NCBI RefSeq assembly: GCF_002980525.1
Contig: NZ_PVBQ01000003.1
Coordinates: 186,001-250,000, forward strand
Source: Sphingobacterium haloxyli
GTDB lineage: Bacteria; Bacteroidota; Bacteroidia; Sphingobacteriales; Sphingobacteriaceae
Reading direction: 5' to 3'
Length of the DNA stretch: 64,000 bases
Below the pieces are notes generated by a model that was given only the letters and a program-made list of their open reading frames with translations, ran no database searches and was not told where the DNA came from. Below, piece by piece: positions 33,297 through 47,648 of this stretch (within the stretch, counting starts at the first letter, position 1; every line of letters begins with the position of its first letter). The position numbers and the translations under genes are program-made.

Positions 33297-33300
33297 TGTG

Positions 33301-33530: not shown

Positions 33531-33773
33531 TTACTTCCCCTCAGAACCCTCCCTATAATCAATAAGCTCAAACTGCACTACGTCGCCCTGTTTGATGGTT
33601 ATTTTGGTTCCGGAAGGTGTGTATTCTCCTGTTATACATGCTTCGTCAGCACCTAGCGGCTCCATATCTAAGTTCACGTCGTCGTGCTTTTCAAGCAGTT
33701 CTAACAAATCCGCGCGTAGGTTATCGAAGTACTCGTTAACCAGTTTTAGATTTTTTTCTTTTGTTTCGTCCAT
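33531..33773 (-). CDS. Small acidic protein of unknown function
   Basis: An 80-residue reading frame begins MDETKEKNLKLVNEYFDN, has a helical N-terminal half rich in Leu and Glu and a beta-like C-terminal half (ACITGEYTPSGTKITIKQG, then VVQFELIDYREG). There is no signal peptide or membrane segment. Composition is protein-like and the frame has a clear ATG, but I do not recognise a family. It lies in a region of remnants between the AbiE locus and ORF6N fragments. Confidence 0.5.
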   Translation of the reverse strand: MDETKEKNLKLVNEYFDNLRADLLELLEKHDDVNLDMEPLGADEACITGEYTPSGTKITIKQGDVVQFELIDYREGSEGK

Positions 33774-33939
33774 GGTTTAAATATAACTAAAAATAGAAAT
33801 ATCTAAGCGAACTGCAACCTCAGCCGCCTTGCGATTGGAAGATATTATAAAGTCCTTCATTTTTAAACAATATTTTACCAATCTGGACACTGGACCAGCC
33901 CTCTTTAAGTTGGTAACTAAATTGGAGAAGTCGTGGTAA

Positions 33940-34167
33940 ATGACGAAATTTGGTCAAGAATATATGCAGACTATTATGGTAACGGATAAAGACGATATTA
34001 CCACACTTCCCTTTGCCGAGCGTGTGCGGTTAGGCGTACAAAAAGCTTTACGTAAGCTCGCGGAAGAAAGTGCCCTAAAAGGCGAAAGTCTAGTGGTCAA
34101 GATAGACGGAGAGGTGAAAGAAGTTCCAGCCAAAGACCTGCTTGCAAATATGCCAAAGGCAAAGTAA
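33940..34167 (+). CDS. Small protein of unknown function
   Basis: A 75-residue frame with MVTDKDDITTLPFAERVRLG and KALRKLAEESALKGESLVVK, followed by a KIDGEVKEVPAKDLL hairpin-like end. Several ATGs are possible (33940, 33964, 33976); MVTDKDD at 33976 would be the most compact. The helix-then-beta-hairpin pattern looks like a real small cytoplasmic protein, but no family is recognised. It ends just before an ORF6N fragment on the opposite strand. Confidence 0.45.
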   Translation: MTKFGQEYMQTIMVTDKDDITTLPFAERVRLGVQKALRKLAEESALKGESLVVKIDGEVKEVPAKDLLANMPKAK

Positions 34168-34174
34168 ACCGTCC

Positions 34175-34250
34175 AACTTGATGTTCCATTTTGGAGTATC
34201 AAGTTTTGGAATTCATCCTCGCTTAGCTGACACTTTTCTAAAAATCCTAT
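34175..34250 (-). pseudogene. ORF6N fragment ending at the palindrome
   Basis: The reverse strand reads LSEDEFQNLILQNGTSSW, the same as the N-terminal ORF6N fragment at 46458-46673, and stops being homologous right after the palindrome AACTTGATGTTCCA-TTT-TGGAGTATCAAGTT (34175-34205). The upstream part of the gene decays after about 25 codons. It is one of several ORF6N remnants in this window. Confidence 0.6.
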
Positions 34251-34347
34251 TTCAAATGTAATAGTGTCAAGGCTACATAGTCGCTACATAAGATAAAATT
34301 CTTCCGCCATTTTTCGTGTTTATTTGACGTGGCGCAGAAGTATCCTC

Positions 34348-34381
34348 GCATTCCCTATCACTTCCGGCCACTAATGCCCGT
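34348..34381. repeat. 34-bp repeat copy 1 in a stem-loop
   Basis: The 34 bases around CTTCCGGCCACTAATGCCCG recur at 35167-35200 with one mismatch. This copy lies between 8-bp arms GCGCAGAA (34332-34339) and TTCTGCGC (34388-34395). The wider interval 34251-34438 has no gene that I can see. Confidence 0.65.
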
Positions 34382-34438
34382 TTCGAATTCTGCGCTACGG
34401 AGCTTTTCTTGCATTAGCATTAGAGATCCTTAGCATTC

Positions 34439-35059
34439 TTAGAGCCAATTCTGGTTATAACGATCTATGACGTCTTTTAGATCAATTGACTTATTTTCAG
34501 AATTTTTTAGCTCTTCATACAGTTGGGGGAAGTCCGCTATAAGCTTCAAAATAATTTCTTTTCTTTCCTTGTAGCGTACGTGAACCGGCATGTTTTCTTT
34601 GAAAAGGAAAGGATAGGTTGCTTTTGCTGATTCGTTAGGCGAACCAGTGCCTACAGATGCATAATAATGATATAAATTGATTTTTCCGGAAGAGATTACC
34701 TGAACAAAATCTTGCGTTACTTTAAAGTTGAAAACATGATGAAAGTGAAGGTCTTTTGCGGTTGTGAAGGTATCTTGTCCTATTACAAAACTTACGATTT
34801 CCTTGGTTGTTAATTTTACTTTTTTTGCTTTTTTGTTTTCCTTGAATGTGATCGAGGAGGTACCATAGGGTTTTGGTTGATACGGAGTAGGAGTATAGTT
34901 AAATTTAAGAAGGCCAGTTATTTTCTCCCCATCGATCGTATAATAATGTCCAGGAGTATATTTTTTAAAGAGTTCCTGACTCATTAAATTTTTGCAAAAT
35001 AATAGCAAAAATAGAACGGATGTGGTTCGTAGTTGTAATTGGAGTGATGGAAATTTCAT
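34439..35059 (-). CDS. Secreted protein of unknown function
   Basis: The 206-residue protein starts with a signal peptide (RTTSVLFLLLFCKNLMSQ) and continues with YTPGHYYTIDGEKITGLLKF, a pattern seen in many uncharacterised Bacteroidota exported proteins that begin with a short beta domain. The later segments VKLTTKEIVSFVIGQDTF and DLHFHHVFNFKVTQDFVQVI are beta-rich. No catalytic motif is seen. It lies between the two copies of the 34-bp repeat. Confidence 0.65.
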   Translation of the reverse strand: MKFPSLQLQLRTTSVLFLLLFCKNLMSQELFKKYTPGHYYTIDGEKITGLLKFNYTPTPYQPKPYGTSSITFKENKKAKKVKLTTKEIVSFVIGQDTFTTAKDLHFHHVFNFKVTQDFVQVISSGKINLYHYYASVGTGSPNESAKATYPFLFKENMPVHVRYKERKEIILKLIADFPQLYEELKNSENKSIDLKDVIDRYNQNWL

Positions 35060-35166
35060 GTTAATATGATTTTTAGCGCGAAGATAATAGTTTCCACTTT
35101 ATCTCCAATTTTTATTATATATTCCCTTAGAAGATTGGGTAGCTGTAGTTTCGGTGCACCGCCGCT

Positions 35167-35200
35167 GCATTCCCTATCGCTTCCGGCCACTAATGCCCGT
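35167..35200. repeat. 34-bp repeat copy 2 at the end of the methyltransferase gene
   Basis: Nearly identical to 34348-34381. It contains the stop codon and the last eight codons (ATGISGRKR) of the methyltransferase gene on the reverse strand, which suggests that the 3' end of that gene was formed by or duplicated into the other site. Confidence 0.65.
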
Positions 35201-35923
35201 CGCACAACCAAAGAAATATTTCTCCTGCGTGACTGTCAAGTTATTCTGCTCAAATATTCGCTTCACCAAATCGCTGTTGCCATATTTTTCCGTATAGATC
35301 CAAAGCATTTTGTAATCGTGCGGGTTTCCTAAAAATATTTTTCCGAGCAATGGTATAACTTTTCCTAAATAGAACCCGTAGAGGGTACATAGAAGTTTTT
35401 TACTCGGTTTTGAGACCTCAACAAAACTGAATTTTCCACCGGGTTTTAGAATTCTATGTATTTCGCTAGCTAAAACTTCCAGCTGTTGCTCATTGAACGT
35501 TTTGAGGCCGTATGCGCAAGAAATAATATCAAAATGGTTAGACTCTAATTTATTTTGAAGAATATTTTCACACAGTAAATTAAGGCCGCCAGCAAACAGT
35601 TTTTTGCTTTTATTACTCGAGCGCGAAACCATTTTGTCAGAAAAATCTAAAGCATAAAAGGTTGAATTCGGAAAATTTCGTTTTAGGAATGTCCAATTTT
35701 CGCCTAGCCCTGAAAGCAGGTCAATTACATGTAGGTGCTGGTTTGACTTTCCAAGTTTTTCTAAGAATTGTCTGCGCCAACGAATGGAAAAGCCGAAGGA
35801 TGTTATATAGTTCATTCGTTCATACGAACTTGACATCCGGTTGAACATTTTTTTGACAAATGCGGGCTCGTAAATATTATCGTGGTGCGACACGACCTTT
35901 TCTATCTTATTAGCTTTGCTCAT
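35174..35923 (-). CDS. UbiE/MenG-like class I SAM-dependent methyltransferase
   Basis: The N-terminal region VKKMFNRMSSSYERMNYITS is typical of the UbiE/COQ5 family, followed by motif I LLSGLGENWTFLKR (with LSGLG where DxGxG is usual), ALDFSDKMVSRSS, and IISCAYGLKTFNEQQLEVLA. The 249 residues are full length. UbiE/MenG methylates demethylmenaquinone; here the degenerate motif I and isolated setting suggest a paralogue with another substrate. The last codons lie in a repeated 34-bp element. Confidence 0.8.
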   Translation of the reverse strand: MSKANKIEKVVSHHDNIYEPAFVKKMFNRMSSSYERMNYITSFGFSIRWRRQFLEKLGKSNQHLHVIDLLSGLGENWTFLKRNFPNSTFYALDFSDKMVSRSSNKSKKLFAGGLNLLCENILQNKLESNHFDIISCAYGLKTFNEQQLEVLASEIHRILKPGGKFSFVEVSKPSKKLLCTLYGFYLGKVIPLLGKIFLGNPHDYKMLWIYTEKYGNSDLVKRIFEQNNLTVTQEKYFFGCATGISGRKR

Positions 35924-35955
35924 ATAGGTTTGTATATATTTACATTCTAATTGCG

Positions 35956-36549
35956 CTAATTGTTCTTCTTGCTCCCAATATCAAACCCCTTTACCACCGT
36001 TACTCCTTTGGAAGAGACATGAGGTGCATTTTCCTGCAAGCGGTCGATGTATTCAAAAAGCAGTTCAATATTCTGGTCATGGCCTTTCTGTTTTTTTGAG
36101 ATTTTCTCTACCGTGTGTTTGATTTCGGCTATTTCCAGTTGCATTTTTGTATTGACATATAACAAGTCTCTAAGCTTTACGAATACATCTATTATACGGA
36201 TGCTCATCCTGATAGCTCGTTCAGTTTTCAAGACATTTGAAAGCATTAATACGCCGTGTTCGGTAAACGCGAAGGGTAGGTATTTGGAATAGCGTCCTTG
36301 TTCTAAGGTCGCATTTTGCGATCTTAGAACGGAGTCATATTCTTCTTTATTTAACTCAAACATAAAATGTTCAGGAAAGCGAATAATATTTCTCCTTACT
36401 TGCTCCTTAAGTCTCCGTGTTTCCACCCCATACAACTCCGCTAGATCACTATCCAACATTATCTTTTGTCCTCTGAACTCGTATATTTTGTTTGCAAGGA
36501 CATCGTCCGCTATGGCTACTGCTTTTAGTTCTGTTTTGGTTTTACTCAT
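35956..36549 (-). CDS. ORF6N domain DNA-binding protein
   Basis: The ORF6N domain covers about residues 17-105: IYEFRGQKIMLDSDLAELYG, VETRRLKEQVRRNIIRFPEH, FMFELNKEEYDSVLRSQ, and LPFAFTEHGVLMLSNVLKTE. A coiled-coil tail follows (LEIAEIKHTVEKISKKQ, then NIELLFEYIDRLQ). ORF6N (with KilA-N) is a DNA-binding module of phages and bacterial genomes, role in bacteria unclear. A 29-bp palindrome lies inside the gene at the codons for LRSQNATLE. At 197 residues it is the only intact member in the window. Confidence 0.85.
   Translation of the reverse strand: MSKTKTELKAVAIADDVLANKIYEFRGQKIMLDSDLAELYGVETRRLKEQVRRNIIRFPEHFMFELNKEEYDSVLRSQNATLEQGRYSKYLPFAFTEHGVLMLSNVLKTERAIRMSIRIIDVFVKLRDLLYVNTKMQLEIAEIKHTVEKISKKQKGHDQNIELLFEYIDRLQENAPHVSSKGVTVVKGFDIGSKKNN
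36301..36329. repeat. 29-bp palindrome inside the ORF6N gene
   Basis: TTCTAAGGTCGCA-TTT-TGCGATCTTAGAA has 13-bp arms with one mismatched pair around a 3-base centre. It encodes part of SVLRSQNATLEQ. The remnants at 34175-34205 and 46481-46511 have a palindrome of different sequence but the same layout at the same codons. Confidence 0.75.
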
Positions 36550-36570
36550 AACTTAATGGTATCGTTCATA

Positions 36571-36623
36571 ATTCATTATACCAATAAAGGTAATAATAAA
36601 CTCTTATTGTAAAGCAATGAATC
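36571..36623 (-). repeat. ORF6N upstream repeat, copy 1
   Basis: About 50 bases upstream of the intact ORF6N gene (including TTATACCAATAAAGGTAAT) recur at 38355-38407, upstream of the C-terminal ORF6N remnant, with only a few differences. This is probably the conserved promoter region of this gene family. Confidence 0.6.
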
Positions 36624-36743
36624 TCTCATTTTGTGCATGCACATAAACAGGAAGAAACACGCCATCGCTGTTTTTCCATATGCCGTCTTCGCACTTCCGT
36701 TCGGGTTAATGGGGAGCTCAACGAAAAGCTGTGAATTTTCTAA

Positions 36744-36938
36744 CGTCTCTTCGAACGCTATTCGGCCTTTGTTTATACACTGTTCGGACTCTGTTCGCCC
36801 AATGAACGATGATTTACCGTGTGTTTACCGTGTATTTAACGTGCGCAACACGGTAAATACACGGTAATTTACCGGTAGAATGCCGGTAATCTTCCGAACA
36901 AGATGCGAACAAGATACGAACAACGTGCGAACAAGGTT
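36744..36938. repeat. Complex inverted and tandem repeat region
   Basis: Between 36803 and 36890 the sequence alternates TTTACCGTGT and CACGGTAAAT-type units that form a long imperfect hairpin; further out TGTTCGGACTCTGTTCGC (36781-36798) faces CCGAACA and GCGAACA units. From 36894 to 36936 an 11-base unit GCGAACAAGAT repeats about four times. The interval 36624-36984 has no gene; the reverse strand near 36603-36690 resembles 15768-15840. Confidence 0.65.
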
Positions 36939-36984
36939 TTAATATAGTCTACGTATGGAGAAGGTGTGTATACTAAGATTCAAG

Positions 36985-37075
36985 TGCTAAGAACTATAAC
37001 ACGATTGCTATTAGGTACTCCCGACAACATCAATACACCATGTTCGGTAAATACCATTGGTGCATACCTCGTATG
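36985..37075 (-). pseudogene. ORF6N fragment, part after the palindrome
   Basis: The reverse strand reads RYAPMVFTEHGVLMLSGV followed by PNSNRVI and a stop. This is the ORF6N segment that directly follows the palindrome position in the intact gene (SKYLPFAFTEHGVLMLSNVL). Nothing of the N-terminal part is attached. Confidence 0.65.
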
Positions 37076-37098
37076 AGCAATGCAATCACTCTTTTCAG

Positions 37099-38226
37099 TT
37101 ATTGTTGCGGCGTCAAAAATAACTTTTCTAATTCCCTATTTAAAAACTCTCCTTTTAGATCTTTCGCGATGACTACTCCGTCCGGATCAATTAGAAAGTT
37201 AGCCGGAATAGACGTTATACCATATTTAAGATACACTTCACCTTTATGTCCTTGTAAATCTGATACCTGTGCCCATGTGATGCCGTCTTTTTCTATGGCT
37301 TCCATCCATTTGTTTTTGTCTGTATCTATAGATACACTCAAAATAGTGAAACCTCTATCTCGATAGTTCTGATAGGCATTAATGAGGTTCGCGTGTTCCT
37401 CCCGACACGGACCGCACCAAGAAGCCCAAAAATCTAAAAGGACATACTTGCCTTCAAATTCGGATAGACTTATTATCTTACCGTCTGTATCCTCCATGCT
37501 GAAATCTATTGCTTTCATGCCGGCCATTACTTGGCTTTTCTTTTTGATTCTTTCTCTAATAGTTTTTCCTTTTTCTGTATTTTTTAGAGACTCTGCAAGT
37601 TTATTGTATACCTTTTCTACCTTGAAAATATAGGTGTTAATTCGTGAGAGCTGATGCAATATGTCTAAGCTCACATACGTGTTAGGGTATTGGTTTGCAA
37701 AAGCTAATTCGATATCTGCTCTTTCGTAAAAAGCTTTATCAAGTTCTCTTCTATTATGATGTAGTAATGCTGTATCCTTTTTTTCTGTTTCATCGAATAA
37801 ATCGGGGTCCTTTATGGATCTCATCCTTTCCCGCACGGTGGCCAGCTGACTGTGTAATAGCTGTAATGTGTCATTTAAGGGCGTTCCGCTTATTTCCGCC
37901 CCTGTTAACGTGTCGGGACTAATAATTTTTATACTACCCGGTTCTAAATATATACTTGCCGATTCCGTAGTAAACCCTGCCAATCCTGGGTCCTCATTCC
38001 TGTAGATGTTCGCCTTTGTCGGGCGTTTAACCTCACCGGTAAAAGAAAAACGCTGGTTTACGGCTGTTGTACTTTCTAAAATATGGTTGCCCTTTTCTAC
38101 GTACGACAGGTATAATGTATCCCCTTCTTGTAATTTCTTTCCGTAACCGGAGATCGTAAAGGTAGTCTGTCCGAACGCGTGCCCAATAGATAATAAAAAA
38201 AATACTAAATATAACCTGTTCTTCAT
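37099..38226 (-). CDS. TlpA-family thiol:disulfide oxidoreductase with DUF4369 domain
   Basis: A signal peptide (RLYLVFFLLSIGHAFG) is followed by a DUF4369 domain (TFTISGYGKKLQEGDTLYLS), a helical linker and a C-terminal thioredoxin domain with the active site DFWASWCGPCREEH and the cis-Pro GITSIPANFLIDPDG. At 375 residues it matches the many Bacteroidota periplasmic TlpA/ResA-like proteins that reduce disulfides in exported proteins. It sits exactly between two ORF6N remnants. Confidence 0.9.
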   Translation of the reverse strand: MKNRLYLVFFLLSIGHAFGQTTFTISGYGKKLQEGDTLYLSYVEKGNHILESTTAVNQRFSFTGEVKRPTKANIYRNEDPGLAGFTTESASIYLEPGSIKIISPDTLTGAEISGTPLNDTLQLLHSQLATVRERMRSIKDPDLFDETEKKDTALLHHNRRELDKAFYERADIELAFANQYPNTYVSLDILHQLSRINTYIFKVEKVYNKLAESLKNTEKGKTIRERIKKKSQVMAGMKAIDFSMEDTDGKIISLSEFEGKYVLLDFWASWCGPCREEHANLINAYQNYRDRGFTILSVSIDTDKNKWMEAIEKDGITWAQVSDLQGHKGEVYLKYGITSIPANFLIDPDGVVIAKDLKGEFLNRELEKLFLTPQQ

Positions 38227-38229
38227 GCT

Positions 38230-38407
38230 TTAGTTGTCTCCTATTCTAAAACCTATTGCTCTTTTTGCTTTTGCCGCGATAGGAGAGGTGTCTTGCTTCT
38301 CCTTGAGTCGGTCAATGTATTCAAAGAGCAGTTCTATATTTTGGTCTCGTTTATATTCATTATACCAATAAAGGTAATCATAAACTTTTATTGTCAAGCA
38401 ATAGAAT
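38230..38407 (-). pseudogene. ORF6N remnant: upstream region joined to the C-terminal tail
   Basis: The reverse strand has the same upstream repeat as the intact ORF6N gene (38407-38355), then directly QNIELLFEYIDRLKEKQD and about 22 more codons to TAA at 38232-38230. The DNA-binding part is deleted, so only the coiled-coil tail remains. The identical NIELLFEYIDRL motif in the intact gene identifies it. Confidence 0.7.
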
Positions 38408-38413
38408 CTTCCA

Positions 38414-38968
38414 TTAACCGGACTTCACGTAATGGAGAGCTATAGATCCAGATTTAAATTTGATGGTATCGACCAGTTCGAGATTAACTTTCCCATGCAG
38501 GCTTCCAGTATCTAACAAATGTCTGCCATTACCCACAATAACAGGATGGATAACAAGAAAAAATTCATCGATAAGGCCTACGGCAATCATTTCGGGAAGC
38601 AGGCTGATACTGTCCATCAGAATGGTTTTTCCGACTTGCTGCTTCAATTTTAGAAGTTCTCCCGCAGGATCGCTACGGACGATACGCACGTTTTGGTCGA
38701 CAACGTCCAACGATCGGGAAATGACAACACTACTAATAGTGCTAAGCTTTTTAGCAAATCGATTTTCTGCGGGGCTGCCAGACTGATCCCTGGCAACTTC
38801 GCGCCAGTACGGAAACATAAGCTGGTACATGATGCGACCAAAGAAAAGCAGGTCAACATCGTCCATCATGGCAGAAAAGTAATCTAAAACCGCTTCATCA
38901 GGACTGAAGGCGGTGTGGTCACAGTAACCGTCAAGGCTCATGTTGATACAAAATCTTACTGTTCTCAT
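38414..38968 (-). CDS. Dihydrofolate reductase family protein (RibD C-terminal type)
   Basis: The start VRFCINMSLDGYCDHTAF, then LLFFGRIMYQLMFPYWREVA, VVISRSLDVVDQNVRIV and FFLVIHPVIVGNGRHLLD are typical of the DHFR-like/RibD C-terminal family, 184 residues. It is related to, but clearly different from, the protein at 13122-13655. It is an NADPH-dependent reductase of unknown substrate. Confidence 0.86.
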   Translation of the reverse strand: MRTVRFCINMSLDGYCDHTAFSPDEAVLDYFSAMMDDVDLLFFGRIMYQLMFPYWREVARDQSGSPAENRFAKKLSTISSVVISRSLDVVDQNVRIVRSDPAGELLKLKQQVGKTILMDSISLLPEMIAVGLIDEFFLVIHPVIVGNGRHLLDTGSLHGKVNLELVDTIKFKSGSIALHYVKSG

Positions 38969-39320
38969 CGTATACGCATAACTGTTATCAGTGCAATAGT
39001 ACGAGAATCGCTTTTAATCGCGCTTCGCCTAAGACAAGAAAAGTATAACAAATCGACCGAAAACTGAGCAGGACTTTATATATACAAATCGTTTAATGCT
39101 TAGTGCGAATACTCTTAAGTGCTTGTGCCCACAATAACACCAGTTCCAACGTCACATTAAGAGACCGTATCTGAAACGGCCTTGGAGCGATCGACTCAAT
39201 TTGCAACACTATAAACCCATTCTGCCACCTTTTGATTTATCCGCATCGGGCGGGTGCTGCCCGTTATTATAGCAATTTTTAGCATATCCGTTTTTTTAAA
39301 TAAGCAGTTCGTTATCAATT
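38969..39320. other. Intergenic interval
   Basis: No gene is seen. A short GC-rich hairpin CGGGC-GGGTGCT-GCCCG near 39245-39262 could end transcription of the SDR gene read on the reverse strand, although it lacks a clear T-run. Confidence 0.3.
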
Positions 39321-39968
39321 CTATAAAAGGACTTCTGTAGTGTGTCTTACTTTATTTAATTTCCAAAATTGATCCGCGATATTTTGGGGATTCCGCAACT
39401 TGCAATTTTCGTCTATTTTTCCGTTAATCAATATTGTTGCGACATAAATACCCCGATCCCTTAAAGTAAAAGACAGGCAGCGCACCATAGACAATAGCCC
39501 TGCACTGGTAATCGATAACGATGCATAATCAGGTTTAGGATGGATGGCGATGCTTCCTCCCGTGGTCAGTATAGTGCCGGTTGATTTCGGTATACAATTC
39601 TTAAGACACCGGACTGCTGTTAACAGTCCGAGCACGTTTACTTTAAAGTCGTAAAGCATATCATTTTCACACACCTTAAGGATGTTCCCATTATTGATAC
39701 TAGCCACGTTGTATAGCATAACATCGATTTTTTTGTAACGACTTTTTATTATCTCCAGCTGATGGGTAAAATCTTCATTGTCAGCAATATCGGTGGGGTA
39801 TATTTCTATTTTGTTGATCCCGTTAGATAATTTCGTTTTTAATTCATCCAATTTGCTAACATTGCGGCTCATTAATAAAAGGTCAAACCCTTCCGTTAAG
39901 AATCTCGAAGCAATAGCTCTTCCCAGGCGTTCACCGGCTCCAATGATCAATATTACTTTTTTGTGCAT
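39321..39968 (-). CDS. Short-chain dehydrogenase/reductase
   Basis: The cofactor motif is LIIGAGERLGRAIASRFLTE with GxGxxLG spacing as in many SDRs lacking the classical TGxxxGIG; LLLMSRNVSKL, MLYNVAS and the active-site region TTGGSIAIHPKPDYASLSIT follow. The usual Tyr-x-x-x-Lys is not conserved (YASLSIT), so catalytic activity may be altered or lost. The 215 residues are slightly short for the family. It follows the SnoaL-like gene by 13 bases and is likely in one operon. Confidence 0.78.
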   Translation of the reverse strand: MHKKVILIIGAGERLGRAIASRFLTEGFDLLLMSRNVSKLDELKTKLSNGINKIEIYPTDIADNEDFTHQLEIIKSRYKKIDVMLYNVASINNGNILKVCENDMLYDFKVNVLGLLTAVRCLKNCIPKSTGTILTTGGSIAIHPKPDYASLSITSAGLLSMVRCLSFTLRDRGIYVATILINGKIDENCKLRNPQNIADQFWKLNKVRHTTEVLL

Positions 39969-39981
39969 GTCATCCCAGGTT

Positions 39982-40380
39982 TTACGATGTGCGTGTATTC
40001 TGTGTCGATCGAATCAGCCATACGCCATCTTCTTTTAACAGCAACATTGTCAATATCCCGGTACGTAGCTCGGTATGCAGATTGTCGATTTTGAAATCCT
40101 CCCACTTCCATGCGGCGTAAACGATAGCAATGTCATCGCGGATTAAACTAATATCCAGAACGTCGAGATGATATTTCATGTTCTGATTTTGCTTCGACAA
40201 AATTTGATGAGCTTTATCATGTTGCTTTATATTTTCTGCATTCGTGGCGTACATTACACCAGACCACGTAATGAACTTCGTGTCTTTCGTAAATAGCTTT
40301 CCCCAATTTTCCATGTCATGGTTATTCCAATAAGTGACATATTTGCTAAATAATTCCTTAATCAATTTTTCCTGTCCCAT
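39982..40380 (-). CDS. SnoaL/NTF2-like protein (SgcJ/EcaC type)
   Basis: The 132-residue protein has the NTF2-like pattern LFSKYVTYWNNHDMENWGKL, FTKDTKFITWSGVMY, DIAIVYAAWKWEDF and a C-terminal TGILTMLLLKEDGVWLIRS. Proteins of this group bind or convert small hydrophobic compounds or stabilise partner enzymes. It is divergent from the Crp/Fnr gene, with a perfect Crp-type palindrome between them, so it and the SDR gene are the likely targets of that regulator. A fragment of a second copy lies at 47731-47790. Confidence 0.8.
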   Translation of the reverse strand: MGQEKLIKELFSKYVTYWNNHDMENWGKLFTKDTKFITWSGVMYATNAENIKQHDKAHQILSKQNQNMKYHLDVLDISLIRDDIAIVYAAWKWEDFKIDNLHTELRTGILTMLLLKEDGVWLIRSTQNTRTS

Positions 40381-40406
40381 AACGATATCATGTTATTCAT
40401 CTCCTG

Positions 40407-40451
40407 CAAAGATATCCGACCTATATGCTGTAACATGTGATTATAATCACA
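40407..40451 (-). promoter_or_regulatory. Crp-type operator and promoter between SnoaL-like and Crp/Fnr genes
   Basis: TGTGATTATAATCACA (40436-40451) is a perfect 16-bp palindrome identical to the Crp consensus TGTGA-N6-TCACA. On the reverse strand a perfect -7 box TATCTTTG lies at 40414-40407. The palindrome centre is 29.5 bp from the first base of the box, close to -40, as expected for class II activation of the SnoaL-like/SDR pair. Confidence 0.7.
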
Positions 40452-40535
40452 ATCCTTTTGCGAGCAATTCGATAAAAAGGTTTGCAAAAAGCTTATCTTT
40501 ATCAGATTAGAATTTAATAGCACCTTAATCAAGCA

Positions 40536-41141
40536 ATGACGGATATGGATGATTCTAAAGTGTTAGATGATTTTTATCAAAAGTTGTCCGAGAAGTTTCC
40601 GTATGTTACCTCCGGGAGCTGGGAAAAGCTGCGGGAGATATCTATCGTAAAATATCTTGAAAAGGACGATATCTTTCTCAGGCATGGAGAACGCTTGCAG
40701 TTTGGAGTATTCGTCGTTACCGGATGGCTAAAACTTTACTATCTGGATGAAAAAGGGGACGAACGGATATCTGCCTTTTGCGGCGGTCTTGAATATATCG
40801 ACAACTGGAACTCGATCCATCAACAGCAGGCATTGCCGTATTCTGTAAGCGCAATAGCTTCAAGCACCATTATATTGTACCCACTTGAAAAGATGGTGAA
40901 GATATTCAGCAAAGAGCCAGATCTACTTCAGTTATGTGTAGACCTTTCTCAAGAAATGATCAGAAAAAAACAGGAGCATTACGAGATACTCACCCTTCGA
41001 TCTCCAGAAGAACGATATCTTCATTTGTTAGCGTCCAAAAAGAACTGGTTACAGGAAATTTCATTAACCAATCTAGCCAAATTTCTGCATGTGAGTAGAG
41101 AGGCGTTAAGCCGGGCGAGAAATCAGGTCTCCTTAAAGTGA
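40536..41141 (+). CDS. Crp/Fnr family transcriptional regulator
   Basis: The sensor barrel is seen in DDIFLRHGERLQFGVFVVTG, WLKLYYLDEKGDERI, and the DNA-binding end is LTNLAKFLHVSREALSRARN, with the R-E-x-x-S-R pattern that reads GTGA. It is 201 residues long, without Fnr cysteines. A perfect TGTGA-N6-TCACA palindrome lies in the divergent promoter region upstream. It probably controls the SnoaL-like and SDR genes opposite and perhaps itself. Confidence 0.87.
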   Translation: MTDMDDSKVLDDFYQKLSEKFPYVTSGSWEKLREISIVKYLEKDDIFLRHGERLQFGVFVVTGWLKLYYLDEKGDERISAFCGGLEYIDNWNSIHQQQALPYSVSAIASSTIILYPLEKMVKIFSKEPDLLQLCVDLSQEMIRKKQEHYEILTLRSPEERYLHLLASKKNWLQEISLTNLAKFLHVSREALSRARNQVSLK

Positions 41142-41228
41142 TAGTGTCCTCTATGCATACACCGGAAGCGTGAGGGCAGTTTAAGTATTCAACGGAAAAA
41201 TGGACATTTAGCGTCTTCCTCCTTTAAA

Positions 41229-42029
41229 TTAATGTTTTTTTGCAACTATAGCATACACCATTGGAATTTTGTTGTCCAAATGTTTTATCCGATATTTTTT
41301 CGGTTCAAATTCAACTGCTTGGTTAAAACAATTATACGGTGAATAATCGTACTCTTGAAAATGTACGAGTTCCATCGAATTGTTTAAAAGGCTAGTTACA
41401 ACCTCACTCATGCTGTGGTTCCAGCTTACGTAAGATTGAGAAATGTCAGCATCTTTATCTGCATAAGTTCCCTTTTCTGTTTCAAAGATCGGTGCTACAT
41501 TAAAATAATGATATCCAATGCTGTCAAAATTCTCGTCAAACATCCATACAACAGGATGGAATTCTACGAAAATGAATCGACCGTTTGGCTTCAGGAAAGT
41601 GGCGATCAGTTTCCCCCATTTCTCTAGATCGGGAAGCCAACCAATAGTTCCATAACTCGTAAAAACGATGTCGAATTTTTTGTCAAGATGTTTGTCCAGA
41701 TCATATACATCACAGCAAATAAATTCAGCGCTGGAATCGGTTTCGTTGGCTAGGTCTTTTGCTGTTTCGATGGCTTTGTCAGAGAGATCGACGCCGGTCA
41801 CTTCTGCGCCAAGTCTACTCAGTGAAATGGAATCTTGCCCGAAATGACATTGTAAATGCAAAATGCTTTTTCCTTTGATATCTCCCAATATCTCCAATTC
41901 GATTGTATTTAAAGATGTTTCTCCCTTTAAAAACCCATCAAGATTATAAAAATCAGATTTTACATGGGTATCCACTCTGTTGTTCCACGAGCGTCGGTTT
42001 ATTTCAATATAATTGTTTTCGGAATTCAT
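41229..42029 (-). CDS. Class I SAM-dependent methyltransferase
   Basis: Motif I is SILHLQCHFGQDSISLSRLG, followed by VTGVDLSDKAIETAKDLA, ICCDVYDL, FDIVFTSYGTIGWLPDLEKW and FLKPNGRFIFVEFHPVVW. LHLQCHFGQDS is a recognisable variant of the glycine-rich motif in a common methyltransferase group. At 266 residues it is complete. The substrate is unknown. Confidence 0.87.
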   Translation of the reverse strand: MNSENNYIEINRRSWNNRVDTHVKSDFYNLDGFLKGETSLNTIELEILGDIKGKSILHLQCHFGQDSISLSRLGAEVTGVDLSDKAIETAKDLANETDSSAEFICCDVYDLDKHLDKKFDIVFTSYGTIGWLPDLEKWGKLIATFLKPNGRFIFVEFHPVVWMFDENFDSIGYHYFNVAPIFETEKGTYADKDADISQSYVSWNHSMSEVVTSLLNNSMELVHFQEYDYSPYNCFNQAVEFEPKKYRIKHLDNKIPMVYAIVAKKH

Positions 42030-42103
42030 GAACTATGTTTATACTAAAGTTAGAATTAATTTCGGTTTTTTCATAATTCGTCTACCTCCACGGCCATCTG
42101 TTT

Positions 42104-42128
42104 TTGAGGTCACAATCTGTGACCTCAA
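42104..42128. repeat. 25-bp perfect palindrome between divergent genes
   Basis: TTGAGGTCACA-ATC-TGTGACCTCAA has perfect 11-bp arms around a 3-base centre. It lies between the methyltransferase gene and the divergent hydrolase gene and has no T-run. Layout and core GTCACA-N3-TGTGAC resemble the palindrome inside the ORF6N gene (36301-36329). Confidence 0.75.
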
Positions 42129-42293
42129 GGAGGGAAGCCTACACCACAGGAGTGTATTGGAGTTTTCTTGACCTTGCATTCGAATAATTTTGTTTTTTTT
42201 GTATATTCGATTATAATAATTAAACGTCGATGGGCAGACCTATAAACGGTTGATTTGCATAGACAACGATGATAATCTTAAACGTATGATACG

Positions 42294-43199
42294 ATGAAAA
42301 TTTTTCTTTTTATGTGTGCATTGGCTGTTATGCAATGGACTGGCGGTATCCTTTTTGCCCAAGAGACATCCGCAGACAAGCTTGTGTCGAGGATAGTGGA
42401 GGACGGTGGATCGGGTGCGTATAGTGCGATAATGCTAGCAGAGCCCTCTTTAGCTACGCATACTGTTTTCCGGCCTCAGGATCTCACAACTTTTAATCAA
42501 AACCGTAAGCTTCCTATTATCGTTTGGGGCAATGGAGCCTGTGCAAACTCACCTTGGGAACATGTTAATTTTTTATCTGAAGTGTCATCCCACGGGTTTT
42601 TAATTGTGGCGATCGGTTTAATGCCGCAAGAGGGAAAGAAAGGAGACGGAAAATCCACATCCAAGCAGTTAACAGACGGTATCGATTGGGCGATCGCGCA
42701 GAATAAGGATCCAAAAAGTCCGTATCACAATAGACTTGATGTTTCAAAAATAGCGGTGAGTGGGATGTCGTGCGGTGGTCTACAGGCGCTTGAAGTGGCT
42801 TCCGATCCAAGAGTAAGCACGGTAGTGATATGCAATAGCGGTATTTTAGATATTCCCGGCAACGGCCGGAGCGCAATGCCAGATCTAAAAAAGGAAAATC
42901 TTAACGAAATCCATACGCCAACACTTTATATGTTAGGGGGCGAAAAGGATATTGCTTACGCGAATGGAATGGACGATTACCGACGTATTAATCATGTTCC
43001 TATTTTTATGGCAAATATGGATGTGGGACACGGAGGGACGTTTAGCCAGCCGCATGGTGGGAAATTTGCTAAAGTGGCCACGGCCTGGTACAAATGGCAA
43101 CTGAAGGGAGATTCGGAAGCTGGTAAAATGTTTTCTGGTGATATGCCTTTGCTTTCGAAGAATGCCCACTGGCGTATAGAGAAGAAAAATATGCCATAA
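42294..43199 (+). CDS. Secreted alpha/beta hydrolase
   Basis: A signal peptide (FLFMCALAVMQWTGGILFAQ) precedes an alpha/beta hydrolase fold of about 280 residues. The oxyanion region is LPIIVWGNGACAN and the nucleophile elbow is VSGMSCGGLQAL (G-x-S-x-G). Later TLYMLGGEKDIAYANG carries the acid region, and NMDVGHGGTF the catalytic His. It is probably a periplasmic esterase or dienelactone hydrolase-like enzyme; the substrate is unknown. A second hydrolase gene follows after 46 bases. Confidence 0.82.
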   Translation: MKIFLFMCALAVMQWTGGILFAQETSADKLVSRIVEDGGSGAYSAIMLAEPSLATHTVFRPQDLTTFNQNRKLPIIVWGNGACANSPWEHVNFLSEVSSHGFLIVAIGLMPQEGKKGDGKSTSKQLTDGIDWAIAQNKDPKSPYHNRLDVSKIAVSGMSCGGLQALEVASDPRVSTVVICNSGILDIPGNGRSAMPDLKKENLNEIHTPTLYMLGGEKDIAYANGMDDYRRINHVPIFMANMDVGHGGTFSQPHGGKFAKVATAWYKWQLKGDSEAGKMFSGDMPLLSKNAHWRIEKKNMP

Positions 43200-43245
43200 T
43201 TTTAACGGTATACACAACTATCTTTAATAATAAACCTCATCCACT

Positions 43246-44196
43246 ATGAATTTTTTCCCGATTATCGGTATCGTCTTATTATTGCCAACATGGTTATTTG
43301 CCCAACAGCCACGTATTCCTGAAGGCTGGTCGGACGGCTACGCGTATGCTAATGGTATCCGGATTCACTATTACCGTGCTGCTCCCCAGCCAGATAAACC
43401 TGTACTGGTAATGGTTCATGGGGTGACCGACAATGGATTATGTTGGACAACGCTTGCACTGAACCTTCAGGGCATGTACGATATTTATATGCTCGATGCA
43501 CGTGGGCACGGCTTGTCTGATCCCTTTATGGCTGGTGATGACGGAGAAACATTGATAAAGGATGTGGTCGCGTTTGTGGGCGCCATGGAATTTCATAACC
43601 CTATTTTAATGGGACATTCTATGGGAGCGGCCACGGTAATGCGACTCGGGGCGGATTATCCGGATATAGCCCGTGCGGTAATCATGCTCGATCCTCTGCT
43701 GGGACGAATCGGCGGCCAAAACCGACCTACCCGGAATAACAGCAAACCCAACACGGATGTATCGTCCAAATCTGCTCCAACAAAACCCAAGATTGCGGTT
43801 AATATGTTTGGTAATCCGGAGGCTCTTGTGACACAAAACAATTATAGTTTCGAAGATCTGATCGCCTTGGGGCGTAGGCAAAACCCGCTATGGGGAGAGA
43901 TGGATATTGCATATTGGGCGCTTTCGAAGAAGCAATATCACGGTCCTTATACGAGCGAGGCCGCTGAAGCGATGACCGGAACGATGAATATCGGGAATGC
44001 GTTGTCTAGAATACAGGTACCCGCTATTATCCTAAAAGCAGACGCTTCTGCCGAAGTTCGTAAAGCTAACGAGGATGCCGCTGCGGCTATGCCGAAGGGT
44101 AAGCTTGTGCATATTGATGGGGGAGGGCATAACCTGCACCACGATCAACTGGAACGAACGACAGCGGTCATCAAAGAATTTTTATCGGCGCTGTAG
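43246..44196 (+). CDS. Secreted alpha/beta hydrolase
   Basis: After a signal peptide (FPIIGIVLLLPTWLFAQ) the canonical alpha/beta hydrolase order is visible: PVLVMVHGVTDNGLCW, MLDARGHGLSDPF, nucleophile elbow LMGHSMGAATVM, acid region IILKADAS and catalytic His HIDGGGHNLHHDQL. At 316 residues it is complete. Similar to epoxide hydrolase/haloperoxidase-like proteins; function not specified. It lies downstream of another secreted hydrolase, probably one operon. Confidence 0.85.
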   Translation: MNFFPIIGIVLLLPTWLFAQQPRIPEGWSDGYAYANGIRIHYYRAAPQPDKPVLVMVHGVTDNGLCWTTLALNLQGMYDIYMLDARGHGLSDPFMAGDDGETLIKDVVAFVGAMEFHNPILMGHSMGAATVMRLGADYPDIARAVIMLDPLLGRIGGQNRPTRNNSKPNTDVSSKSAPTKPKIAVNMFGNPEALVTQNNYSFEDLIALGRRQNPLWGEMDIAYWALSKKQYHGPYTSEAAEAMTGTMNIGNALSRIQVPAIILKADASAEVRKANEDAAAAMPKGKLVHIDGGGHNLHHDQLERTTAVIKEFLSAL

Positions 44197-44301
44197 GGGC
44201 TAGCCTATAAATTTTAGTTATTGGATTATGTTAACACAATTACAATCTATACACGTAGCCTAAGCGCCCGTCCGTATTTGTGCCACAATACATAATGGCT
44301 T

Positions 44302-44309
44302 TATCTTTG
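44302..44309 (+). promoter_or_regulatory. -7 promoter box TATCTTTG of ohrR-ohr
   Basis: A perfect TAnnTTTG match 19 bases before the ATG at 44329. It is the only clear promoter before the ohr gene, so the two genes probably form one transcript. Confidence 0.5.
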
Positions 44310-44328
44310 TACAGTAAACGAGTATAAG

Positions 44329-44748
44329 ATGGATCATTTAAAATTAGAAAATCAAGTTTGCTTCCCAATTTACACTTTGGCAAAAGAGATGGTGAACAAA
44401 TATCGATCCTTGCTAGAAGATTTGGAGTTAACTTATCCACAATATTTGGTGATGCTCGTGCTTTGGGAGAAAGATGAACAATCTGTTTCGGCCATCGGAG
44501 AGAAGTTGAATCTAGACAGTGGTACACTGACCCCCCTTTTAAAGCGGTTAGAACAAAAGGAAATTGTAATGCGGAAGAGAAGTCAGGCAGATGAAAGAAT
44601 AGTAGTCATTTCCCTTACAGCAGCGGGTCATCAATTAAAAACGAAAGCACAAAATGTACCTTCAGCAATGGTTGATGCAATGTCGATACCTGTAGCAGAA
44701 TTAAAACTATTGAAAAATAGTATAGACAAGATATTATCAAATTTATAA
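44329..44748 (+). CDS. ohrR: OhrR organic hydroperoxide sensor, MarR family
   Basis: The N terminus LENQVCFPIYTLAKEMVNKY contains the conserved peroxide-reactive Cys of OhrR. The winged helix reads LTYPQYLVMLVLWEKDEQSV, NLDSGTLTPLLKRLEQKEIV and RSQADERIVVISLTAAG. At 139 residues it is full length. OhrR represses ohr and leaves DNA when its Cys is oxidised by organic peroxides. The ohr gene follows after 10 bases. Confidence 0.92.
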   Translation: MDHLKLENQVCFPIYTLAKEMVNKYRSLLEDLELTYPQYLVMLVLWEKDEQSVSAIGEKLNLDSGTLTPLLKRLEQKEIVMRKRSQADERIVVISLTAAGHQLKTKAQNVPSAMVDAMSIPVAELKLLKNSIDKILSNL

Positions 44749-44758
44749 AAACAGAAAA

Positions 44759-45181
44759 ATGAAAACTTTGTATACAACACGTGTTACCGCTCAAGGAGGA
44801 CGAGACGGACACATTAAAAGTGAAAATGGTGTATTGAATGTAGATGTACGTGCACCGAAAGCATTGGGCGGTAAAAGTGATGACTTTACTAATCCTGAGA
44901 TGTTATTTGCTGGTGGATATGCAGCATGTTTTGATAGCGCTTTGAATTTGGTGATTAAAAAATCACGTATTCAGACAGGAGAAACTACGGTAACCGCTAA
45001 GGTGGGTATCGGACAGTTGGATAATGGTGGTTTTGGTTTGGAGGCCGAGTTAGAGGTTAATATTCCAGGGGTCTCTATAGAAGAAGCCAACAAACTCGTA
45101 GAACAGGCGCATCAAGTTTGTCCTTATTCCAATGCGACACGCGGAAATATAGAAGTAAAATTGGTAGTAACTAACAATTAA
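44759..45181 (+). CDS. ohr: Organic hydroperoxide resistance protein Ohr
   Basis: The Ohr/OsmC fold is seen in LYTTRVTAQGGRDGHIKSEN, with the first catalytic Cys in NPEMLFAGGYAACFDSAL and the second in AHQVCPYSNATRGN. At 140 residues it is full length. It is a thiol peroxidase that reduces organic hydroperoxides in the cytoplasm using lipoylated proteins. It is co-transcribed with ohrR. Confidence 0.94.
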   Translation: MKTLYTTRVTAQGGRDGHIKSENGVLNVDVRAPKALGGKSDDFTNPEMLFAGGYAACFDSALNLVIKKSRIQTGETTVTAKVGIGQLDNGGFGLEAELEVNIPGVSIEEANKLVEQAHQVCPYSNATRGNIEVKLVVTNN

Positions 45182-45187
45182 AAGTAA

Positions 45188-45811
45188 CATAAAAATCCAC
45201 AAATTAAGATTGAATTTTATCAAAAATTAGCAAAAGTTGCTCCGGAGAAAACCGTTTTTGCAACCAACTCGTCTACCTTATTACCGAGTCAATTTGCAGC
45301 GTATACCGGACGTCCGGAAAAATTTGTGGCCCTACACTTTGCCAATGAAATATGGAAACATAATACTGGGGAAGTAATGAAACATCCTGGTACTTCGGAT
45401 GAAGTATTTGAAAGTTTATTAGTATTTGCTAAACAGATCGGCATGGTGCCTTTGGCCATTCATAAAGAACAGCCAGGTTACATTGTCAATTCACTGCTAG
45501 TTCCTCTTTTGAGCGCCGGAATGGACTTGTGGATAAGAGATGTAGCAGATATTGAGACTGTAGATAAGACTTGGATGGTTGCTACAGGTGCTCCATTAGG
45601 TCCTTTTGGTATTTTGGATGTTGTGGGAATTACCACCGCTTATAATATTAATAAAATGGTGGCAGATAAAACAAAAGATCCTGTGAAGCTTAAAATTGCA
45701 GATAAGCTGAAAGCAGAATTTATAGATAAAGGTAAATTGGGTGTAGAGACAGGTGAAGGGTTTTATAAATATCCTAATCCAAGCTTTAAACAAAAAGATT
45801 TTTTAAAATAA
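45188..45811 (+). pseudogene. 3-hydroxyacyl-CoA dehydrogenase lacking its N-terminal NAD-binding motif
   Basis: The open frame begins after a TAA at 45185 with KIEFYQKLAKVAPEKTVFAT, then NSSTLLPSQFAAYTGRPEKF, and runs to the end of the family: PGYIVNSLLVPLLSAGMDLW, GAPLGPFGILDVVGI and GEGFYKYPNPSF. The first 80 or so residues, with the GxGxxG loop, are missing and there is no suitable start codon before the homology (only an internal GTG). The ohr gene ends immediately upstream. It is therefore a decapitated gene, though a truncated protein could still be made. Confidence 0.78.
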
Positions 45812-45817
45812 ATAACA

Positions 45818-46450
45818 ATGTCATTAATAGAAGATTTGAAATGGAGACATGCTGTCAAAGCGTATGATCCGAATAAAAAAGTAAGTCAAGAAGATATTGA
45901 CAAAATAGTAGAAGCAGCGCGTTTAGCACCTACTTCTTCTGGTCTACAACCGTTTAAGGTAATCATAGTACAAGACCAGGAAGTGAAAAACAAATTGGTA
46001 AAAGGTGCGCTGAACCCAGAATGTATGCGCGATGCTTCACACATCATTATTTTTGCAGCTTGGGATAGATATACGGCAGATCGTATAGATCATGTGTATA
46101 ATTTCACAACAGACGAAAGAGGATTGCCACGTGGACGATTTGATTCGTATACCAATATGCTCAAAAATGTTTATCTCAACGAACCTGCCGAACGCAATTT
46201 TGCTCATACAGCACGTCAGACCTATATTGCGCTAGGCATGGCATTGGCTCAAGCGGCTGAATTGCGTGTAGACACTACTCCAGCCGAAGGTTTTAATAAT
46301 GCGATTATAGACGAAGTGCTAGAATTGGAAAAACATGGTCTGAAAAGCGTTTCTTTGATGTATGTAGGTTATGCCGATGTAGAAAAAGATTGGCTTTCGA
46401 CTATGAAAAAAGTACGTGTACCTAAAGAAGATTTTGTATTAACGTACTAA
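45818..46450 (+). CDS. NAD(P)H-dependent nitroreductase family oxidoreductase
   Basis: The protein shows the FMN-binding nitroreductase fold: DLKWRHAVKAYDPNKKVSQE, AARLAPTSSGLQPFKVIIVQ, ARQTYIALGMALAQAAELRV, and a C-terminal LGL-like segment KSVSLMYVGYADVEKDWLS. Length of 210 residues is right for NfsB-like enzymes. It uses FMN and NAD(P)H to reduce nitro compounds or quinones. It follows the truncated dehydrogenase by 6 bases. Confidence 0.9.
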   Translation: MSLIEDLKWRHAVKAYDPNKKVSQEDIDKIVEAARLAPTSSGLQPFKVIIVQDQEVKNKLVKGALNPECMRDASHIIIFAAWDRYTADRIDHVYNFTTDERGLPRGRFDSYTNMLKNVYLNEPAERNFAHTARQTYIALGMALAQAAELRVDTTPAEGFNNAIIDEVLELEKHGLKSVSLMYVGYADVEKDWLSTMKKVRVPKEDFVLTY

Positions 46451-46457
46451 AATTTTG

Positions 46458-46673
46458 CTAATCTTTTTTCGTACCACCCCAACTTGATGTTCCATTTTGG
46501 AATATCAAGTTTTTGAGTTCATCTTCGCTTAGCTGAAACATAAAATCCTCAGGGAAACGTTTGATGTTACGCTTAACAGCCTTGTTTAGATTTCCAGTGG
46601 TAACTCCGTATAACTCCGCCAGATCTTGATCAAGCATCACTTTATGATCTCGAAAAACGTAAATCCTACTCAT
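46458..46673 (-). pseudogene. N-terminal half of an ORF6N protein, cut after the palindrome
   Basis: The 71 codons encode RIYVFRDHKVMLDQDLAELY, GVTTGNLNKAVKRNIKRFPE, DFMFQLSEDELKNLIFQ and NGTSSWGGTKKD and then stop, where intact relatives continue into the FTEHG/FTEQG part. The palindrome AACTTGATGTTCCA-TTT-TGGAATATCAAGTT (46481-46511) lies at the codons for NLIFQNGTSS, just before the break. It may still give a small protein. Confidence 0.7.
46481..46511. repeat. 31-bp palindrome inside the ORF6N remnant
   Basis: The arms are AACTTGATGTTCCA and TGGAATATCAAGTT around TTT, with one mismatched pair. The same palindrome with one more change is at 34175-34205. The position in the coding frame matches the palindrome at 36301-36329. 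Confidence 0.75.
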
Positions 46674-46721
46674 CAGTACCTCGTCTGGGAGTGTTGTATT
46701 GGAGGAACGAGCCTAAGATTA

Positions 46722-47648
46722 CTACTGGGAGAACTTAAAGGATGAATTAACCTTTAAGGTCATGTTTCCAAATCGTATCTTTAATTCTTCCATCACACTA
46801 CTTTTATCTTCTGACAGATATCCAGTCTGTAGGTATCGGAAAATCAAGCGCCAATCATTGTCTATCAGCGTGTAAGTTTTTCCACCTTGCTGAACATTAA
46901 GCTGTAATAATGCACCATCCTCCGTTCCTCTTGTCGTCATAAAAGTGGGGATAAAATGGTCTAATCCCGAGAGATTAAATTTGATACCTGTTGTTCCTTG
47001 TCTCAGACCTTTGATCGTTTCAGATGTGAATATAGGTTCTTCACCGTTCTCCATATCTGTGTTACTGCTGTAAACCGAAACAAAAGCGTCCACTGGAGCA
47101 TCTCTGTCTAGTTCCCAATTTAGGTATGGGCTATGAAACGATAAGGTGTCGACAGTGATCGAATCAATTTGTTTCACATTGACAAATTCGATACTCTTCG
47201 AGATAGAATCTAGTGGGTACATGGAGTTTTTTCTGTTCTCCGCACTTGAATAAACATACTGGAAAAGCTTGTATTTTCCCGGATCAAAAATCTGCAATTT
47301 TAAATCTTCAGTTGTATCTGTTCTTACCCATTTGTCATTTGCTAGGTTTAAGAGCTTCCATTGTAAAAAGATGCCCTGCATTGTATTAAGTTTTTGACCG
47401 GACTTAGTTTCCCAGTGAGTCTCATTTACAAAGTTAGCACCCCCGTATGTTTTATATGGACTATCTACATTTATAGCGAAACCATATGTCGGTAAAATCA
47501 GTGTAGAGTCCGGAAGAGTTTTTCCCTGAGGATTAACGTACGAAAATTTACTCCTTATACGTTTATCCTTGGTGTCGTCATTATAATCTTCATTTTTTTT
47601 ACAACCAAAAGCCAGAAGTAAAAGTGTCAAAACTACGAGTTGGCGCAT
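46722..47648 (-). CDS. Lipoprotein of unknown function (DUF5007-like)
   Basis: The protein has a lipoprotein signal with lipobox LLAFGCKKN and 308 residues in all. The mature part is beta-rich (KTLPDSTLILPTYGFAINVD, IFLQWKLLNLANDKWV, DRDAPVDAFVSVYSS). No catalytic motif is visible. The pattern fits the uncharacterised outer-membrane lipoproteins common in Bacteroidota, and DUF5007 is only a tentative label. It stands alone on the reverse strand. Confidence 0.6.
   Translation of the reverse strand: MRQLVVLTLLLLAFGCKKNEDYNDDTKDKRIRSKFSYVNPQGKTLPDSTLILPTYGFAINVDSPYKTYGGANFVNETHWETKSGQKLNTMQGIFLQWKLLNLANDKWVRTDTTEDLKLQIFDPGKYKLFQYVYSSAENRKNSMYPLDSISKSIEFVNVKQIDSITVDTLSFHSPYLNWELDRDAPVDAFVSVYSSNTDMENGEEPIFTSETIKGLRQGTTGIKFNLSGLDHFIPTFMTTRGTEDGALLQLNVQQGGKTYTLIDNDWRLIFRYLQTGYLSEDKSSVMEELKIRFGNMTLKVNSSFKFSQ

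Follow-up and report, generated by a model that had tools for sequence, protein, structure and literature searches.

Palindromes carried within reading frames are familiar from the Rickettsia palindromic elements, which occur in many unrelated genes. Phage lambda O provides an example of a DNA-binding protein that has its target in its own gene, its origin and dyad targets lying within its coding sequence (PMC5043065). Here we describe a palindrome within the coding sequence of an ORF6N gene (PF10543) of Sphingobacterium haloxyli, on a stretch of 64,000 nucleotides (contig NZ_PVBQ01000003.1, positions 186,001 to 250,000) that we call the window and in which all coordinates below are counted. 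In our reading, the product of this gene recognizes the palindrome as its own DNA target, most likely for negative autoregulation, and we place the probability of this reading at roughly 0.65.

The ORF6N gene of the window and its palindrome

The intact ORF6N gene (35956-36549, minus strand) encodes a protein of 197 aa, termed P0001, which is a clear member of PF10543 (E 2.5e-34; 117.8 bits against a curated cut-off of 27.8) and also matches the PADLOC candidate profile PDC-S05 (E 6.8e-59). ORF6N was the only domain above the curated cut-off in the Pfam scan of P0001, which revealed no nuclease or recombinase domain. The nearest named relatives of the protein are from Sphingobacterium, and the genome that harbors it has 4.69 Mb. 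Codons 44-53 (36391-36420, minus strand) specify the predicted recognition helix, TRRLKEQVRR, as judged from an AlphaFold 2 (AF2) model with a block mean predicted local distance difference test (pLDDT) of 93-94 and from the co-varying columns described below. Within this helix, the codon of E49 (36403-36405, minus strand) corresponds to the residue that we call X, which according to the code and the tree predicts base 4 of the palindrome, Glu pairing with G.

The palindrome itself, GTTCTAAGGTCGCA-TTT-TGCGATCTTAGAAC on the plus strand, is the proposed target site of P0001 and occupies 36300-36330, with 14-bp arms, one mismatch, and its center on the codons of Q78 and N79. A preliminary description, made from the letters alone, had placed it at 36301-36329, one base short on each side.

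Conservation of the palindrome among ORF6N genes

ORF6N genes were gathered by protein or profile search and by the palindrome core, yielding 108 distinct full genes. Palindromes were scored as matches minus 2 per mismatch, with a threshold of 9, in the segment between the motifs FMF and FTE.G. This score was reached in 103 of the 108 genes, as opposed to 2 of 368 other stretches of those same genes. Some of the 108 had been fetched by the palindrome core, and in the subset of 84 found by protein or hidden Markov model search alone, without using the palindrome, the figure was 80/84. When each gene was subjected to 200 codon shuffles, the mean score fell to 3.9; the observed score was never reached in 96 of the 108 genes, and p was at most 0.05 in 106. 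Both the fixed place that the preliminary description gave to the palindromes and their excess over the codon-shuffled null are borne out.

The letters of the palindrome change while its symmetry does not. The bases paired 4, 5 and 8-13 positions from the center vary, with complementarity kept in 90-99% of genes, and distances 2 and 3 are invariably A and C (105 genes tabulated). Arms extend up to 22 bp, a center of one base is common, and there is usually one palindrome per gene, two being present in the genes of loci L184 and L185. Of the 121 genomes of the family, 43 contain the 15-base core and 4 its reversed control. In 15 of 216 genes the same core lies in a shifted reading frame, which means that it is the DNA that is kept and not the peptide.

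A palindrome at this place also occurs in ORF6N genes of Treponema, Sulfuricurvum, Butyrivibrio, Segatella and Bacteroides plasmids. The Haliovirga ORF6N gene has no palindrome of score 9 at the usual place, and among viral relatives the two pattern matches in viral contigs gave no confirmed case (phage records numbered four). Three further arrangements were noted. In L143, near 1453-1520, an ORF6N gene lacks an internal palindrome and has two just upstream, both with the core predicted by its Glu. On two Segatella copri plasmids of 2955 and 4140 bp (L198 and L199) the sole annotated genes are those for Rep and ORF6N, and on a Treponema saccharophilum plasmid (L195, 1492-2388) ORF6N lies inside a restriction locus, between the methyltransferase and specificity-subunit genes.

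Correspondence between recognition helix and palindrome

We defined residue X as the third position of the motif L-[NKR]-X-[QAS] in the putative helix, and counted base 4 from the dyad center. A code relating the two came from sorting genes by their core; it was fixed beforehand and then tested on 96 new full genes from other Bacteroidota families, after sequences with gaps at the helix columns, sequences without an FTE.G-like motif and duplicates had been dropped. In the training genes, and counting agreement in both half-sites, Glu goes with G in 63/65, Gln with A in 50/51, Arg with C in 9/10 and Lys with C in 2/2. The corresponding hold-out values are 31/32, 37/38, 5/5 and 9/9, for a total of 82/84. 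These hold-out counts cover the 87 of 96 genes whose palindrome scores at least 8, namely, 84 with residues of the rule and three with Leu; training and hold-out genes belong to the same phylum, and the latter are among the best-scoring places listed for the other families. Leu, which is absent from the rule, goes with T in its three hold-out genes (two in both halves, one in one half), and T also accompanies it in L350. Classical contacts pair Gln with adenine, Arg or Lys with guanine and Glu with cytosine, and the pairings of the code match these on one strand or the other.

Mutual information was computed for symmetric bases against the protein columns that precede the palindrome, using the 216 of 231 genes with a palindrome score of at least 8, which also served for the tree tests. 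On a background of column medians of 0.05-0.15, the normalized value (MI/H) for X was 0.93 with base 4 and 1.0 with base 5, column -3 coming next with 0.76 and 0.72. Base 7 and column -4 gave 0.74. The value of 1.0 for base 3 with column +4 rests on few variants (4/215 not C); in this column, Arg goes with C in 211/211, Asn with A in 4/4 and His with A in 1/1. Columns -4, -3, 0 and +4 are R45, R46, E49 and R53 in the protein of the window.

Shared ancestry, synonymous codons and paralogs

Shared ancestry was addressed with a FastTree tree from which the columns of the helix and of the palindrome had been excluded. On its supported branches there are nine independent pairs for Glu or Gln against G or A, in which a mean of 8.6 changed the same way and 0.0 the opposite way (median p 0.004); when all branches are counted, the independent pairs number 35.

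Synonymous codons follow the same rule. Among the 88 genes with Glu as X, the Ser codon just before Gln is TCG in 86 and TCA in 2; it is TCA in 79/79 with Gln as X and AGC in 7/7 with Arg, so that a residue some 28 codons upstream predicts a synonymous choice. Shifted-frame genes with Glu and with Gln also obey the code. Covariation between amino acids, that is, between X and an Ala or Val inside the palindrome, was considered as the sole cause of the correspondence and is ruled out by the synonymous Ser codon together with the shifted-frame genes.

Paralogs within one genome mostly have different helices and matching palindromes, as illustrated by a Pedobacter genome with six of them, each with its own helix and site. 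Helix and site change together, and the paralogs of a genome therefore usually have different addresses. Some paralog pairs have the same core and differ in the arms alone, and the two copies in the L007 genome are nearly alike. The co-evolution of protein and gene-borne site that the preliminary description had suggested is strongly supported by the hold-out test, the tree-based pairs and the synonymous codons.

Structural model

In the AF2 model the co-varying columns sit in helix 44-53, the second helix of an apparent helix-turn-helix. The palindrome encodes approximately residues 74-84 and reaches into a loop (80-86, pLDDT < 50), in a region modeled between helix 68-78 and strand 93-95; going by this model, the palindrome-encoded segment may be an enlarged wing. 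Weak fold matches (Z 5-7) point to winged-helix-type DNA-binding domains of Ski/Dachshund, Mbp1, RacA and MerR-like proteins. No solved structure matched by sequence with E below 0.1, Foldseek gave no match to the model at E <= 0.001, and all VIA matches had Z under 7.

Related families

The families RhuM, Bro-N and KilA-N were surveyed as the open reading frames (ORFs) of the returned loci, some of them nearly identical (30, 26 of 27 and 20 of 21, respectively), and the corresponding place of the palindrome was judged by eye from motifs, not from a cross-family alignment. In RhuM, where a peptide motif had led us to expect the feature beforehand, 22 of 30 ORFs have a palindrome scoring at least 10, 21 of them at one motif. 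Bro-N has palindromes in 15 of 26 ORFs, at several motifs, and KilA-N in 13 of 20, mostly with a GAATTC-like center. For comparison, the remaining ORFs of the RhuM and Bro-N loci (100 ORFs, 93.4 kb) hold 13 such palindromes.

A correspondence between a helix residue and base 4 is also apparent in RhuM, with Glu-G in 6/6, Gln-A in 2/2, Lys-C in 2/3, Leu-A in 5/5, Met-A in 3/3, Tyr-G in 6/6 and a single Asp-A. The two codes are not identical, since Leu pairs with A in RhuM and with T in ORF6N. Among the RhuM exceptions, L379 is a misfit with a weak palindrome (score 8), no palindrome reaches score 8 within the searched stretch of 4 of the 30, and the sole score-10 palindrome of L370 is at another place in its ORF. 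In E. coli K-12, dinD (L445, 3261-4085) contains TGACCATTTCGAGGA-ga-TCCTCGATATGGTCA at codon 63, at a motif that Bacteroidota Bro-N genes also have, and the five genes neighboring it have palindrome scores of at most 9. There is an additional palindrome upstream of dinD, which we take to resemble a LexA box.

It is tempting to speculate, with odds somewhat against it, that the whole superfamily of ORF6N, RhuM, Bro-N/DinD and KilA-N, in bacteria, archaea and mobile elements, might be self-addressed, each gene carrying the recognition sequence of its own product soon after the helix, under selection at the DNA level and changing with the helix. If so, a lock and key held in one gene could act as an identity tag, allowing cis-only regulation of paralogs and perhaps like-versus-like immunity between elements.

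Remnants and relics of ORF6N genes in the window

Another ORF6N gene is represented by its 5' half (46461-46673, minus strand; profile positions 2-70, PF10543 E 1.5e-26), whose translation contains the helix TTGNLNKAVKRN with Lys as X. Its palindrome, AACTTGATGTTCCA-TTT-TGGAATATCAAGTT at 46481-46511, has one mismatch and the core TTCCA-TTT-TGGAA, which fits the Lys-C rule. The minus strand also has, at 37016-37081, a 3' piece of ORF6N (profile positions 65-86), and the two pieces look like a single gene that was split by about 9.4 kb. They bound the span 37016-46673, and between them TlpA-like, RibD-like, methyltransferase, MarR, OsmC and nitroreductase genes were recognized by eye.

A 61-nt relic at 34173-34233 (minus strand) is 92% identical to 46479-46539 and contains the palindrome copy 34175-34205, which reads ...TGGAGTATCAAGTT and differs from 46481-46511 at one core base. 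The two remnants had been described as sharing one palindrome: both sites are indeed palindromic and their positions stand, but the sequences are not identical, and the core GTnnCA-N3-TGnnAY, put forward for every copy, fails in the right core of 34175-34205, which breaks TGnnAY. A further relic (38239-38402, minus strand; from repeats and tblastn) consists of an ORF6N 3' end joined to a copy of a 48-nt stretch found upstream of the intact gene, an arrangement that looks as if the gene body of ORF6N had been deleted. The ORF6N genes of loci L009, L041, L047, L059, L065 and L103 adjoin fragments of other ORF6N genes, suggesting repeated use of the place.

Other repeats of the window include a 34-nt direct repeat (97% identical; 34348-34381 and 35167-35200, 819 bp apart), a 43-nt direct repeat (93%; 40196-40238 and 47729-47771) formed by a piece of an NTF2-like gene, by eye, that recurs 7.5 kb away, and an ACCGTGT-rich inverted repeat of 27 nt (36807-36874, 85% complementary) that precedes the intact ORF6N gene by about 260 bp. 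The KilA-N and RhuM genes of the same genome have one palindrome apiece.

Discussion

The conserved symmetry, the code, its success on held-out genes and selection at the DNA level are established by these data. Physical binding of the protein to its own palindrome is, judging from sequence, very probable, and the gene carries what is expected of an autoregulated repressor, namely, a dyad of its own that matches the recognition residues of its protein. We envisage a winged-helix dimer whose recognition helix would read both half-sites, column -4 contacting base 7, X bases 4 and 5, and column +4 base 3; this dimer geometry is our proposal. The codons of the site would fall in a flexible stretch between two strands, the wing region, and the tolerance of this region for many peptides would explain how two reading frames can preserve one DNA core. 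A protein bound some 230 bp inside the gene that encodes it would stand in the path of RNA polymerase and block transcription, and such an intragenic operator would move along with the gene on transfer. The data only hint at autorepression as the purpose of the intragenic site, and we regard its chances as about even.

Several observations weigh against a self-read, autoregulatory site. Upstream palindromes are enriched, with 32 sites in 28 of 194 ORF6N genes compared with four of the core type and four others in a control window, and they match the code of their own gene at chance level (15 yes, 3 half, 14 no), which speaks against simple promoter autorepression. That reading, which calls for a promoter-proximal site of the same specificity, was rejected on these counts, and the intact gene of the window has no upstream palindrome. 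A paralog that fits the odd upstream site is present, by eye, in some of those genomes and not in all. As for the code, nine hold-out genes without a palindrome of score 8 were omitted from the counts, one with Glu (L291, which fits) and eight with Arg, of which L232, L253 and L258 fit in both halves, L275 has no palindrome, and L263, L294, L304 and L308, all with a shifted frame, fit in the right half only. L025, L031 and L237 are misfits, and agreement is limited to one half in L026, L063 and L244, in an Arg gene of the training set and in a Leu gene of the hold-out set. The tree tests of the remaining pairings, finally, are suggestive but not significant: for Arg or Lys with C, all four pairs agree in direction (p 0.125), and of the seven pairs for base 7 and column -4, 4.0 agree and 3.0 show no difference (median p 0.125).

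Other readings of the palindrome were weighed against the same data. By analogy with lambda O, ORF6N could act in the replication or partition of a mobile element, with the palindrome in its gene serving as origin or centromere. The presence of ORF6N as one of only two annotated genes, beside Rep, on the 2955-bp and 4140-bp Segatella plasmids agrees with this, as does the weak resemblance of the model to ParA winged helices and RacA (Z about 5). However, those plasmids already possess a Rep protein, many ORF6N genes are on contigs above 1 Mb, and instead of an iteron array there is usually one palindrome per gene, other stretches scoring in only 2/368, so that we consider this role improbable. 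A like-versus-like immunity, in which the resident protein would recognize the palindrome in incoming relatives of the same type, seems improbable to the same degree. It would be in keeping with the match to PDC-S05, a phage-defense candidate, with paralogs of different addresses in one genome, with upstream sites that often fit a different specificity, and with defense genes in the same window, namely, a Drt2-type reverse transcriptase (49596-51215, minus strand; PADLOC E about 1e-119, below the NCBIfam cut-off for Drt2) and a broken AbiE pair (32229-33329, minus strand) in which the AbiEi gene precedes an AbiEii reduced to its C-terminal part (profile 205-282 of 283). Yet a paralog that fits the odd upstream site occurs, by eye, in only some of those genomes, and PDC-S05 belongs to a class of PADLOC candidates, the PDCs, described as unvalidated (PMC12988326).

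We think it still less likely that the palindrome acts as an mRNA hairpin read by the protein or by another factor. Long arms of up to 22 bp with strong covariation would suit a hairpin, but mismatches of the sense-strand arms (A.C 22, A.A 10, G.T 10) display no G-U bias, centers of one base are common, and the pairing of helix and base follows the classical code for duplex DNA. The least likely of all is a mobile palindrome, of the repetitive extragenic palindromic (REP) or Rickettsia type, or a recombination hot spot that splits ORF6N genes. Relics centered on the palindrome, a gene that seems to be broken immediately beyond it, a core shared between two reading frames and a few intergenic palindromes without a recognizable ORF6N gene are what such an element might leave behind. 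Against this, the element is confined to one place in the gene and follows the helix of that protein, in new genes as well, break points of 52 partial ORF6N matches do not pile up at the palindrome, and in the genome of the window neither site type has a further copy, the remnant type being sought with up to three mismatches and the intact type by exact core. A recombination or homing site was rejected on the break points, and a homing endonuclease gene because ORF6N is the only Pfam domain above cut-off and the site is intact inside the gene, not interrupted. A REP-like element or a regulon was rejected because the remnant type is found in its own genome only at the two places already known. 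The intact-type core occurs there exactly once, its one-mismatch places number 37 versus 31 for a control pattern, and a looser 13-base pattern has 5 places versus 3. In relatives, the sites that fall outside ORF6N genes belong to relics or to upstream positions, apart from a few that are intergenic. Regarding an invertible switch, no pair of inverted sites flanking a segment appeared among the 25 listed of 31 inverted repeats at 32000-48500. The selfish, homing-like or phase-control system imagined in the preliminary description is not supported by the domains, the break points or the copy number of the intact-type core.

Little has been written on this family, the term ORF6N occurring in 5 papers of the library searched. 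Taking the palindrome as the target of its own gene product offers a lead on function, together with a target sequence and a protein-DNA code that can be read. As each gene names its own target, many genes become natural protein-DNA pairs for studying the evolution of recognition. Among the entries listed from the open-access literature, which covers few subscription papers, no report of a gene-borne target for ORF6N, KilA-N, Bro-N or RhuM proteins appeared.

Among known systems, the ORF6N, KilA-N, Bro-N and RhuM regulator families (PF10543, PF04383, PF02498 and PF13310) are close; the gene of the window belongs clearly to ORF6N, and many of its relatives have intragenic palindromes as well. 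It shares with the Rickettsia palindromic elements a palindrome in the reading frame, but here the palindrome has one place per family and is matched to the protein. RacA and HiNmlR, whose folds represent autoregulated winged-helix or MerR-like repressors, resemble the model weakly (Z 5.3 and 5.0) in the recognition helix and wing; such repressors also have a palindromic target at their own gene, whereas the target of ORF6N sits inside the coding sequence of the DNA-binding domain. The nearest precedent is phage lambda O with ori-lambda, a dyad target inside the coding sequence of its own protein. In lambda there are several iterons and a role in replication, whereas ORF6N usually has one dyad, a superfamily that spans phyla and a legible helix-to-base code. 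The arrangement of a target within the gene of its protein is of a kind already known, and what would appear to set ORF6N and its relatives apart, on sequence comparison, is a helix-to-base code across families that we have not found described for any of them.

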